From Candidatus Saccharimonadota bacterium (GTDB lineage: Bacteria; Patescibacteriota; Saccharimonadia; Saccharimonadales; Saccharimonadaceae), in contig JAFWIQ010000004.1 of the NCBI GenBank assembly GCA_017511865.1, positions 1 to 38,177 on the forward strand: a stretch of 38,177 nucleotides of DNA, read 5' to 3'. Below, piece by piece: positions 24,914-28,777 of this stretch. Position 1 is the first letter of the stretch, and every line of letters begins with the position of its first letter. Both the position numbers and the translations under genes were made by a program. The notes below the pieces were generated by a model. It worked only from the letters and a program-made list of their open reading frames with translations. It had not been told where the DNA came from and did not search any database.

Positions 24914-25413
24914 GAGTAGCCTCCATGTCGCTATCTCAGCATACTCAAAGTTTAGCTGTTCGGTTATTACATCACCAAACACTATTTATTTCAACTGGCT
25001 TTGTTCGGGAAAATCAACAGGGAAGTTTTCCACAATGGTGCAAAACCAAGACCTAAAAAATCTTCAAAAAAGCACTTGCATTTTTTAAAAAAACATAATA
25101 AACTAAAACCAGCGATTAAATAAATAAAAACGCTAAACAAAAAGTCGCACATTAAAAAAGTTTGAGATCGGCCATCTAGGAGCTTCGCGCGCATTAAATA
25201 TTAGCGAGATGCGTCAAAAAAATCGTGCGTTCTTTCCTTAAAACACACCTCCCAATAAAACTCTATATGGTCTAACACAATAAGTCTCTCAACGGCTGCG
25301 ATATATGATTAGCTTCGCGCTGATAAATCGTGGTAGATATATTGTGATAATTAAACAAAAATCAAACAGAAACAAACCCGCTGAAGTTTCTAGTTGAGCG
25401 GTCTCAAACGATG
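24914..25413. other. Gene-free AT-rich gap between divergent units
   Basis: No coding frame with a credible start was found in this roughly 500-bp stretch. It holds TGTTCGGGAAAA (25002-25013), a DnaA-box-like TTTTCCACA (25026-25034) and GTGCAAAACC (25038-25047). All three are shared with the gap at 420-465. It also holds an AGCTTCGCGC word repeated near 25182 and 25311, and long A-rich runs. A non-coding RNA or regulatory region for rsmH is possible, but no recognised RNA family is seen. Confidence 0.4.
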
Positions 25414-25426: not shown

Positions 25427-26299
25427 ATGGAGAAACTACATAACCCAGTATTGTTATCAGAAGTCCTAGCAACTTTGGATCCGCATCCCGGGGAAAGTTA
25501 TTTAGACTTAACCGCCGGCTACGGAGGACATGCTAGAAAAATTTTGGATGTGACGCGGAATTATAAAGACTCATGCTTAGTCGATCGCGACGAATTTGCT
25601 ATTAATTATTTGAAGGACAAATTCGACTCAAAAATCGAAATTAAGCATACTGACTTTTATAGCGCGGCGCTACAGCTTATAGAGTGTGGAAAGACTTTCG
25701 ATATCATACTGGCAGATTTTGGAGTTTCTTCTCCGCAATTAGATATGGAAGAACGCGGTTTTTCATTTAAATATGATAGTCCGCTCGATATGCGAATGGA
25801 TAGACGGCAAAGTCTAACAGCTGACAAAATTATTAATCACGCTAGCGAAAGGGAATTGGCAGAGATATTTGTAAAGTACGGTGAAGAAAAGTTAGGGCAC
25901 GCCAAACTGTTAGCAAGAGAAATCGTTCATCATCGCCCGGTCAAAAGCACAAGGGAATTAGCAGAGATAATTAAGCACAGATCTAAGTACTCAAAAATTC
26001 ATCCCGCCACCAAAATCTTTCAAGCGATTCGTATCGTAGTTAATGACGAATTAGGAGAAATCACAAGAACTCTCCCACTTTTGCCGAAACTACTTAACAA
26101 AAACGGTCGTCTTGGGATTATCTCCTTCCATAGTCTAGAAGACCGTTTGGTAAAAGATTATTTTAAGGAGGCGACAAGTCACGGCGAGGAATCAGAGCTA
26201 AGACTTATCAACAAAAAACCAATCATTGCGGAGAATGTGGAGTTAGCTATCAATCCGCGAGCTAGAAGTGCCAAACTGCGAGCTGTTCAGCGGAATTGA
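25427..26299 (+). CDS. rsmH: 16S rRNA (cytosine-N4)-methyltransferase RsmH
   Basis: This 290-residue SAM-dependent enzyme methylates N4 of C1402 in 16S rRNA. The SAM motif is DLTAGYGGHARKILD, followed by LVDRDEFAINYL, the catalytic-region motif ADFGVSSPQLDMEERGFSF, SPLDMRMD and the C-terminal ISFHSLEDRLVKDYF, all diagnostic of the MraW/RsmH family. The ATG at 25427 is preferred over an upstream frame opening because a -10 box ends 7 nt before it. It heads the division and wall cluster, without the usual mraZ in front. The stop is TGA. Confidence 0.95.
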   Translation: MEKLHNPVLLSEVLATLDPHPGESYLDLTAGYGGHARKILDVTRNYKDSCLVDRDEFAINYLKDKFDSKIEIKHTDFYSAALQLIECGKTFDIILADFGVSSPQLDMEERGFSFKYDSPLDMRMDRRQSLTADKIINHASERELAEIFVKYGEEKLGHAKLLAREIVHHRPVKSTRELAEIIKHRSKYSKIHPATKIFQAIRIVVNDELGEITRTLPLLPKLLNKNGRLGIISFHSLEDRLVKDYFKEATSHGEESELRLINKKPIIAENVELAINPRARSAKLRAVQRN

Positions 26300-26335
26300 T
26301 AAAAATAAAAAACTAAAAATTAAAAAGGAGGCAAC

Positions 26336-26401
26336 ATGCCAAAACAAATTTTAGTTGCGAACAAATCCCGCAAACAAACCATTAAGGTAAATTTCCGTTA
26401 G
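26336..26401 (+). CDS. 21-residue basic micro-ORF between rsmH and ftsL
   Basis: This frame of 21 codons plus TAG has the strongest Shine-Dalgarno in the window (AAAAAGGAGG, 5 nt before the ATG), so efficient translation is very likely. The peptide starts MPKQILVANKSRKQ and is basic. Its last sense codons are in a heptamer A-AAT-TTC (26389-26395) that fits the X-XXY-YYZ slippery pattern, two codons before the stop. A multi-hairpin RNA begins at the stop. It may be a leader peptide, the 5' part of a frameshifted protein, or a translated entry to a structured RNA. Confidence 0.55.
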   Translation: MPKQILVANKSRKQTIKVNFR

Positions 26402-26577
26402 TCTCCCTTAACCTGGGTGGGGGGATCCTCGCCCAGGCTTTCGGGACTAACCGACATGGACCAGAGTGTGGTCCGCCAAAAAATAGAGTTTTCACAGAGA
26501 GTGTGAAGTGTATGACCTTCCCGGGCAAGCTTTTACGGTTTACTTATGGCTCTGATCGTAAAAGCCCCCGGACTAAG
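26397..26577 (+). ncRNA. Structured RNA element in the rsmH-ftsL gap
   Basis: Five stems are visible. Stem 1 GTTAGTC (26397-26403) pairs with GACTAAC (26445-26451). Stem 2 CCTGGGTG (26412-26419) pairs with CGCCCAGG (26430-26437). Stem 3 GGACCA pairs with TGGTCC (26458-26474). Stem 4 TTCACA pairs with TGTGAA (26491-26507). Stem 5 GCTTTTACG pairs with CGTAAAAGC (26529-26565) and is extended by CCGGG/CCCGG. TTAGTC can also pair with GACTAA at 26571-26576, which would close the whole domain and exclude stem 1. It is GC-rich compared with its flanks. I do not recognise it as tmRNA, RNase P, SRP or 6S RNA. A cis-regulatory leader for ftsL-ftsI is inferred. Confidence 0.6.
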
Positions 26578-26646
26578 ACAGAATATTATCATTTACAATT
26601 TTTTTAAAAACAAAAATAAAAACAACAAGCGAGGAAAACAAAAAAC

Positions 26647-27000
26647 ATGATCAACCAAACTACCTATGTCACCAGACGAGAAGCTTTCGGAGGGAACAGC
26701 TTTGCCCGCAACCGCAATACCATTCGTCACACCAAAAAGAGTCTTGGCTCAATTTCCCAAATTGTCATCGTGAGCATGTTGACTCTAGTCTTTGGGCTAA
26801 TTTATGTAGCTGAAGGCACCAAGGCTACTAGTTTTGATTATGAACTTTCCTCAGTTGAAACCGAAATCACCGAAATGAATGCCAAAAAAGACGATCTTGC
26901 AGTCGAAAAAGCGCGTCTAAATTCTGTTGCTACGGCCAAAAATAGCACTGTTGCCGCTGCCATGGAAGACGCCACGGTAACCGGCTATGCCACGGAATAA
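26647..27000 (+). CDS. ftsL: Cell division protein FtsL-like
   Basis: This 117-residue single-pass protein has a basic cytoplasmic N-terminus, one membrane helix (about residues 37-58, ISQIVIVSMLTLVFGLIYVA) and an extracytoplasmic coiled coil (residues 64-105, with ELSSVETEITEMNAKKDDLAVEKARL). This topology and its place between rsmH and ftsI identify FtsL, which with FtsQ/DivIB and FtsB recruits FtsW-FtsI to the septum. FtsL proteins share little sequence, so the call rests on context. GCGAGG precedes the ATG. The 3' end overlaps ftsI by 14 bases. Confidence 0.75.
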   Translation: MINQTTYVTRREAFGGNSFARNRNTIRHTKKSLGSISQIVIVSMLTLVFGLIYVAEGTKATSFDYELSSVETEITEMNAKKDDLAVEKARLNSVATAKNSTVAAAMEDATVTGYATE

Positions 27001-28777
27001 TTATTCAAATACCAAATCAAGTAATAGCGAGGGTAAACTTTCGCATCGCCGCATCAATATCTTAAAAAATATCGTACTTGTTGCACTAGCGATTATCTTA
27101 GTGCGACTTTTTTTCATTCAAATCATTGAACATAGCGCATGGGTGGCAAAAGCCGACAAGCAACATACTTTGCTCGAAACCATCACTGCCAAACGTGGCC
27201 AAATTTATATGATGGACAAAAACGAACCAGTTGCCGTCGTCTTGAATCAAACTACTTATCAGGTTGTTATAGATCCCGCTGTCACCGACAAAGAGTCTGT
27301 CAAAAATGTTCTTACGACTCACGCCAAAGATTATATTACTGCCGATTTTGATGCTGTCTACAGTCAGGAAGGTCTGCGCTACTATGTCGTGGCTAGAAAT
27401 ATTCCTCGCAGTATAGCTGAAAAAATCGCCGCAGAAGAAGTTCCAGCTGTTTGGCTTCAAAAAACCAACCAGCGAGTTTATCCTGAAGGCGAAATGGCCT
27501 CAGGGTTACTTGGTTTTGTTAATGCCGATGGTCTTGGGCAATACGGCGTCGAGGGGTCGCTTGACCATCTTTTATCTGGTGAAGATGGCTTGCTTAAAAC
27601 TACTGCCGACATCAATAAAGTAGCTCTTTCCATCGGCAACGATAACGTCAAGATTCCCGCCGAAGATGGCAAAGACATAGTTCTTTCCGTCGATCGTGGC
27701 CTAGAGCGAGGCGTTGAAGAAATCGCCGTCAACCATTTGGAAAACAGTGGAGCCACCAACGCGGCTGTCCTTATCATGGATCCAAATAACGGTGAAGTTT
27801 TAACGATGGCCAATCTCCCCAACTATAATCCAGGGGATTATGGCAACGTAAAAGATGCCTCAGCCTACTCTAATTACGTTACCGAAATACCATATGAGCC
27901 GGCTTCAATTTGTAAAAACTTTGCTTTTTCCGCAGCGATTAATGAGGGTGTCATGAGTCCAGACACTACTTATTACAATCAGGGTTACGAAATTGTTGAT
28001 GGCTGGAAGATTGAAAACGCCGAAAAAAGAAGCTCTCTCAACGGCATTATTAGCATGCGTACCGCTCTCTACTGGTCGTTGAATAGTGGCTCTATTTACG
28101 CATTAAAACTTCTCGGTGGCGACAGTACTTCCATCAACCAACAGGGGCGTGAAAAACTTTACGATTATTACTACAATAAATTCCGTCTTGGTCAGGCTAC
28201 CGGCATCGAACTACTTGAGGCGGAAGGCTATATCCCAGATCCTAACGAAGGTTGGGGACGTGATTCGACTTACGCCAACATGACTTTTGGCCAGAACCTT
28301 AGCATCACCATGCTCCAAACTGCGACTGCTTTTTCGGCGGTCGTCAATGGTGGGACCTACCGCACCCCTAGCATTATTAAGGGTACTATGGAGAATGGTG
28401 AGCTTGTGCCGCAAATACGTACAGATACTATCGAGGATAAAATCCTTTCAGACGAAACTTCCGCCATGATGCGTGATATGCTTGTAAACAACCGTAATTA
28501 CAAGGTAGCCAATGGCATTGACCGCTTAGGATATGCCATTGGTGGCAAGTCTGGTACCGCTCAGGTTATCAAGGACGGCTCCTACGACAACACCATGAGC
28601 GAGTTGGTTGGCTCTTATATCGGTTTTATTGGCCCAGAAGGGGAGTTGCCAAAATACGTGATAATGGTTAAAATGTGGGGAGAGGGTCAAGATATCGATA
28701 GCGGGGAAGCTATGAAATTATTTGACTCGCTTTCAAATTATTTAATTGATTATCTAAAGATTAAGCCAAAGGGATAA
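26987..28777 (+). CDS. ftsI: Peptidoglycan transpeptidase FtsI/PBP2-like
   Basis: This 596-residue class B penicillin-binding protein has a membrane anchor (about residues 24-45), a PBP dimer domain (KRGQIYMMDKNEPVAVV onwards) and a C-terminal transpeptidase domain. The three active-site motifs are visible: SxxK as SICK (Ser about 307), SxN as SLN (about 364), and KTG as KSG (about 520). It cross-links septal peptidoglycan outside the membrane. It starts inside ftsL, which suggests coupled translation, and precedes mraY by one base. Confidence 0.94.
   Translation: MPRNNYSNTKSSNSEGKLSHRRINILKNIVLVALAIILVRLFFIQIIEHSAWVAKADKQHTLLETITAKRGQIYMMDKNEPVAVVLNQTTYQVVIDPAVTDKESVKNVLTTHAKDYITADFDAVYSQEGLRYYVVARNIPRSIAEKIAAEEVPAVWLQKTNQRVYPEGEMASGLLGFVNADGLGQYGVEGSLDHLLSGEDGLLKTTADINKVALSIGNDNVKIPAEDGKDIVLSVDRGLERGVEEIAVNHLENSGATNAAVLIMDPNNGEVLTMANLPNYNPGDYGNVKDASAYSNYVTEIPYEPASICKNFAFSAAINEGVMSPDTTYYNQGYEIVDGWKIENAEKRSSLNGIISMRTALYWSLNSGSIYALKLLGGDSTSINQQGREKLYDYYYNKFRLGQATGIELLEAEGYIPDPNEGWGRDSTYANMTFGQNLSITMLQTATAFSAVVNGGTYRTPSIIKGTMENGELVPQIRTDTIEDKILSDETSAMMRDMLVNNRNYKVANGIDRLGYAIGGKSGTAQVIKDGSYDNTMSELVGSYIGFIGPEGELPKYVIMVKMWGEGQDIDSGEAMKLFDSLSNYLIDYLKIKPKG

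Follow-up and report, generated by a model that had tools for sequence, protein, structure and literature searches.

The mraW RNA motif of Actinobacteria is a structured RNA located upstream of mraW. The RNA described here resembles it in being a structured RNA at the rsmH (mraW) part of the division cluster, but it lies downstream of that gene, before ftsL, occurs in Saccharibacteria and has no Rfam match. Intercistronic hairpins and mRNA processing or stability elements are comparable in that they too sit between cistrons without a U-tract; whereas such elements are bare stem-loops, the present RNA measures about 125 nt and combines sequence-conserved unpaired strands with covarying helices. 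Orphan riboswitch candidates likewise lie upstream of an operon and are similar in size, in covariation and in having conserved unpaired nucleotides, but the present RNA differs from them in that no expression platform was found and in that it always occurs in one gene context. Finally, viral xrRNAs are exonuclease-resistant RNAs with a compact fold, and by analogy the compact fold and a putative loop-loop contact of the present RNA could shield the RNA downstream of it. No earlier description of this RNA was found in the open-access literature searched.

The window, a stretch of 38,177 nt, comes from a 600-kb genome of Saccharibacteria belonging to the Ca. Nanosyncoccus group (genus g1). Sequence together with Pfam and NCBIfam matches gave the order rsmH, small ORF, RNA, ftsL-like gene and ftsI along the locus (Table 1), and mraY, ftsW and murG appear, by position and sequence, to come after ftsI. 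The reading frame of rsmH is alternatively open from a TTG at 25394, and the TIGR02209 match of the ftsL-like gene is weak and under the cut-off.

Table 1. Features of the rsmH-ftsI interval (positions in the window)
Feature	Positions	Strand	Basis or remark
rsmH (mraW), gene 5' of the element	25427-26299	+	Pfam PF01795, E 4.4e-90
GGAGG Shine-Dalgarno (SD) of the small ORF	26327-26331	+	Sequence; precedes nearly all homologous small ORFs
Unannotated conserved microprotein ORF, 21 codons, MPKQILVANKSRKQTIKVNFR and stop	26336-26401	+	Profile matches, dN/dS-like ratio, relatives in other families
Variable 5' hairpin (GTTAGTC/GACTAAC stem and inner stem 26412-26437), outside the conserved core	26397-26451	+	Fold
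Conserved structured RNA core	26454-26579	+	Covariance model R1 match, 137.5 bits; covariation
Helix P1, TGGACC 26457-26462 with GGTCCG 26470-26475	26457-26475	+	99.4% of cells paired
Conserved TAGAGTT	26484-26490	+	P2 loop in compact relatives
Hairpin P2, TTCACA 26491-26496 with TGTGAA 26502-26507	26491-26507	+	About 80-86% of cells paired (alignment A6), many gaps
Conserved TATGACCTTCC strand	26511-26521	+	Nearly invariant in alignments A3 and A6
Helix P3, base 26521-26525 with 26567-26571, apex 26529-26538 with 26556-26565	26521-26571	+	Base 98.9%, apex 81-95% paired
Conserved P3 apical loop, ACTTATGGCTCTG	26542-26554	+	Other loop types in some species
Conserved 3' flank, GGACTAAG, first two bases closing P3	26570-26577	+	Alignments A3 and A6
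ftsL-like gene, 117 aa, 3' of the element	26647-27000	+	Position ahead of ftsI; NCBIfam TIGR02209, E 0.02
ftsI (PBP transpeptidase)	26987-28777	+	Pfam PF00905, E 8.4e-48

Covariation and fold of the RNA core

An earlier note, made from the sequence of the window, had described 181 nt between rsmH and ftsL as one uncatalogued structured RNA. Such an RNA is indeed conserved and covarying in relatives and has no relevant match in Rfam, but its extent had to be revised: the 3' part (26454-26579) is conserved with very strong covariation, while the 5' part (26397-26451) is not conserved. In a 91-row alignment fitted to a congener-derived model, the loci being partly picked by model score, the related sequences non-independent and the genomes partly incomplete, the model paired 92.2% of the cells, compared to 63.1% in shuffles. 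The covariation score of this alignment was 0.644, compared to 0.196 ± 0.008 after shuffling (none of 500 shuffles reached the observed value), and it was 0.129 or less when the partners were slid by one to three columns.

Since the 91-row alignment was fitted to the model, we also performed a tree-based, R-scape-like test, namely a G-test with APC whose null redistributes the inferred substitutions over a FastTree tree. With 84 sequences, again in a model-fitted alignment, and 20 null alignments, a design that does not resolve E-values under 0.05, 16 column pairs were found at an E-value of 0.05 or less; 15 of them lie in the model and the 16th extends P3, so that the covariation in relatives which the earlier note had proposed to look for was found. 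In P1, all six pairs showed changes on both sides and three were significant against the tree-based null, and in P3, compensatory changes were seen in every pair, with 12 model pairs and the extension reaching significance. G-U pairs outnumbered A-C pairs (138 versus 42), thus indicating that the + strand is the RNA. Overall, these comparisons lend good support to an RNA family in which P1 and P3 are kept by compensatory changes.

The core consists of helices P1 and P3, a species-variable hairpin P2 and unpaired strands whose conserved parts read, in the comparison, GAGU, GUGU, AUAUGACCUUCC and GGNCUAWG. The TATGACCTTCC strand is unpaired apart from C26521, which closes P3. P2 forms a hairpin in most species, although its form varies, and divergent species have alternative P2 hairpins; a second covariance model left out the P2 pairs. 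The predicted fold of positions 26397 to 26577 has a free energy of -73.2 kcal/mol (z -4.13), and that of positions 26380 to 26600 has a z of -4.07, with none of 200 shuffles being as good. An ORF within the core was considered and rejected, as the length differences of the core are not divisible by three.

In compact species, the P2 loop UAGAGY is complementary to the common P3 loop GCUCUG, and TAGAGTT, which occupies the P2 loop in these relatives, could kiss the P3 loop in a putative contact. Pairing of UAGAGU with GCUCUG is possible in many of the 75 loci with the common loop type, at run lengths near the shuffled level and without two-sided changes, and P3 loops quite different from GCUCUG occur in other species. 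The P3 loop ACUUAUAGCUCUG is swapped for loops of the GAUGCGGUGGUGCG or GCGCCGGUGGCGAC types in L144, L146, L147, L148, L152, L156, L157 and L158, and intermediates between types are found in L128, L138 and L149.

Distribution of the RNA and conservation of the small ORF

A covariance model built from ten congeners was searched in 394 genomes of the family. Matches were obtained in 157 of the 394 genomes but in only 2 of the 61 genera, namely 151 in g1 and six in g11, and within the Ca. Nanosyncoccus genus nearly every species harbors the RNA. The carriers are ultrasmall parasitic bacteria of essentially one genus plus a few genomes of a further one. One of the six g11 matches, genome G254, bears a g1-like copy, possibly on a stray contig. 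The E-values of the model were weaker in divergent species, and several genomes that had initially been missed were regained by the second model or by local search. This second model gave no match in 33 other genera tested outside g1 and g11, and no sequence similar to the RNA was found in viral contigs and phage records.

The RNA is nearly always present as a single copy and at one site. All 91 aligned loci have a small ORF of 20 to 24 codons upstream of the core, and an ftsL-like ORF was automatically recognised downstream in 82 of them, the script having missed the other nine. The gap between the small ORF and the core ranges from 14 to 381 nt, and that between the core and the recognised downstream ORF ranges from 2 to 209 nt. 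In most loci read from other genera or families, a plain GC-rich hairpin lies between the small ORF and ftsL. The RNA is thus best taken as an elaboration, specific to its lineage, at a site that commonly carries a hairpin. In locus L014 (genome G056), from another genus, a strong terminator-like hairpin (GAGCGCCCACTTGGGTGGGCGCCTATTTTC) comes after the small ORF, and the RNA core is lacking.

The small ORF itself starts with the ATG at 26336 and ends with the TAG stop at 26399 to 26401. Profile matches to its peptide were found in 236 of the 394 family genomes and 31 of the 61 genera at E-values up to 0.1, many of the weaker ones being doubtful. In a set of 116 distinct DNA forms, synonymous changes made up 84% of the single-base codon differences, compared to an expected 22%, and the dN/dS-like ratio was 0.05; by these measures, the small ORF is under strong purifying selection in the genus of the window. 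Related small ORFs occur between rsmH and ftsL in other Saccharibacteria families as MPIQVKNLSRAYKVKVRVV forms and, as judged by eye from the gap sequences, as MPIHIPVQY... forms. An ORF of about 19 to 24 codons is kept at this place across Saccharibacteria (e.g., L184, L186, L261 and L277), and a recognisable copy is missing from a few rsmH-ftsL gaps. No Pfam or NCBIfam model matched the peptide, and the comparison thus brings to light a gene of about 21 codons that is conserved across Saccharibacteria. Sequestration of its SD by a conserved CCUUCC strand was rejected, since the free energy of the duplex of the two is a mere -7.1 kcal/mol and the prediction leaves the SD open; in the fold, the stretch at 26323 to 26329 has a mean predicted unpaired probability of 0.95.

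The 5' hairpin and known RNA families

The earlier note had further proposed a switch between two exclusive folds, in which GTTAGTC at 26397 pairs either with GACTAAC at 26445 or with GACTAA at 26571. The three motifs are located where the note had placed them, and both complementarities are present in the window, but such a switch is highly improbable. The 5' hairpin is not conserved among congeners: the 5' part varies in sequence, length and presence and is absent or unrelated in many of them. The 5' segment and the 3' tail can form a run of at least six pairs in 60% of the 91 loci, which is near the 46% found after shuffling. The alternative partner begins at G26571, which closes P3, and its pairing with the 5' segment would open the 98.9%-paired base of the best-conserved helix. 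In addition, GTTAGTC spans the final codon and the stop of the small ORF (CGT TAG TC) and is thus partly constrained by it. Scanning and folding the ftsL side of the core revealed no anti-terminator, no + strand terminator near the core and no conserved SD-sequestering stem, and no + strand stem with a U-tract was found as an intrinsic terminator in positions 26300 to 26646.

The note's statement that no common RNA family is recognised was borne out by the Rfam search that it had suggested. Rfam 15 gave no relevant match, housekeeping RNAs included, for the window and the region at the gathering score or at E-values up to 5, and nothing relevant for nine divergent relatives. A housekeeping RNA (tmRNA, RNase P RNA or SRP RNA) too diverged for Rfam is hardly credible as an identity of the core, even less so than the switch. 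Both tmRNA (RF00023) and RNase P RNA (RF00010) were rejected, as canonical copies lie elsewhere in 9 of 10 genomes, including that of the window. Genome G163, listed as 99% complete in 4 contigs, lacks an RNase P match as well as a full-score tmRNA match. What could speak for a diverged housekeeping RNA is that SRP RNA was found by neither bacterial model in the core-bearing genomes tested: RF00169 did not detect it in any of 29 genomes (10 of g1 and g11 and 19 other Patescibacteria), nor did RF01854 in nine g1 and g11 genomes, and SRP RNA may be strongly diverged or absent in these genomes. However, neither SRP model matches the core, which is moreover restricted to two genera, and the absence of SRP RNA does not track the core, since the small SRP model also misses the 19 Patescibacteria outside g1 and g11, so that non-detection is shared by genomes without the core.

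Possible roles in the division transcript

We tentatively favor, as the foremost of several readings and at somewhat less than even confidence, a new structured RNA family that would act in cis in the division-gene transcript of Ca. Nanosyncoccus and its sister genus, as a boundary for the ftsL-ftsI part. Transcription would continue from rsmH across the microprotein ORF and the RNA to ftsL-ftsI, and the folded domain would mark a boundary within this division mRNA, giving the ftsL-ftsI part a stability or a translation level unlike that of the rsmH part; to this end, the domain might block ribonucleases or be bound by a protein, for instance. A post-transcriptional boundary of this kind, whether it works by processing, stability or protein binding, seems most likely because a plain hairpin takes the place of the element elsewhere and no switch platform is visible. 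The fixed place of the RNA ahead of ftsL and ftsI makes plausible the control of these genes that the earlier note had suggested from location, although fixed synteny is insufficient to prove action in cis, since conservation is usual for division clusters in any case. That unpaired bases are strongly conserved also suggests specific recognition, by a ligand, a protein or another RNA, which goes further than a mere roadblock.

The same conserved unpaired strands, together with the exchangeable loop types, would suit a compact RNA with partners, and the core could instead be cut from the division transcript as a noncoding RNA acting in trans, possibly as an RNP, its location being only historical. 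The wide range of spacing to both neighbors and the lack of a visible expression platform are consistent with this. We nevertheless regard it as unlikely, as every one of the 91 aligned loci has the same gene neighbors, no conserved sequence resembling a promoter or a terminator was noted next to the core, and the RNA is missing from most genera although the locus persists. Slightly less probable still is a riboswitch whose core binds a small molecule, such as a cell wall precursor, and controls ftsL-ftsI-mraY. The size of the core, its internal conservation and its place before an operon with ftsI and apparently mraY, ftsW and murG fit those of orphan riboswitches, but no Rfam riboswitch matched, only one gene context is known, and the core is followed by neither a terminator or antiterminator nor a stem involving the ftsL SD, the gap to ftsL being A-rich and variable.

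A self-cleaving ribozyme or other catalytic RNA separating the upstream and downstream messages appears very unlikely. The compact helices, the conserved unpaired strands, the possible contact between the P2 and P3 loops and the intercistronic place would be in line with it, but that contact shows no two-sided covariation, no Rfam ribozyme family matched and no catalytic signature was recognised. Less far-fetched than a ribozyme, though still quite doubtful, is the idea that the RNA and the class-wide microprotein form a linked regulatory unit, in which the RNA would be a new kind of element that senses a ligand or a protein and to which the microprotein perhaps binds. If true, such a unit would link the maturation of ribosomes (rsmH) with the synthesis of the septum (ftsL-ftsI) in episymbionts that depend on a host.

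Whichever role it has, the element sits at the operon that builds the septum, and the RNA and the microprotein bear on division control in reduced, host-dependent bacteria. With it, a bacterial radiation in which RNA biology has been little explored gains an RNA family that is supported by covariation and missing from Rfam 15.

Repeated UUUUGACC motifs were observed between the small ORF and the core in the g11 loci L182, L145, L150 and L180. They were rejected as a genome-wide regulon, since few instances of the pattern ATTTTGACCGAT occur elsewhere in the genomes tested. Several of the repeats sit in the loops of small hairpins, such as TTTATTTTGACCGATAAA and CCCCTTTTGACCGGGG.
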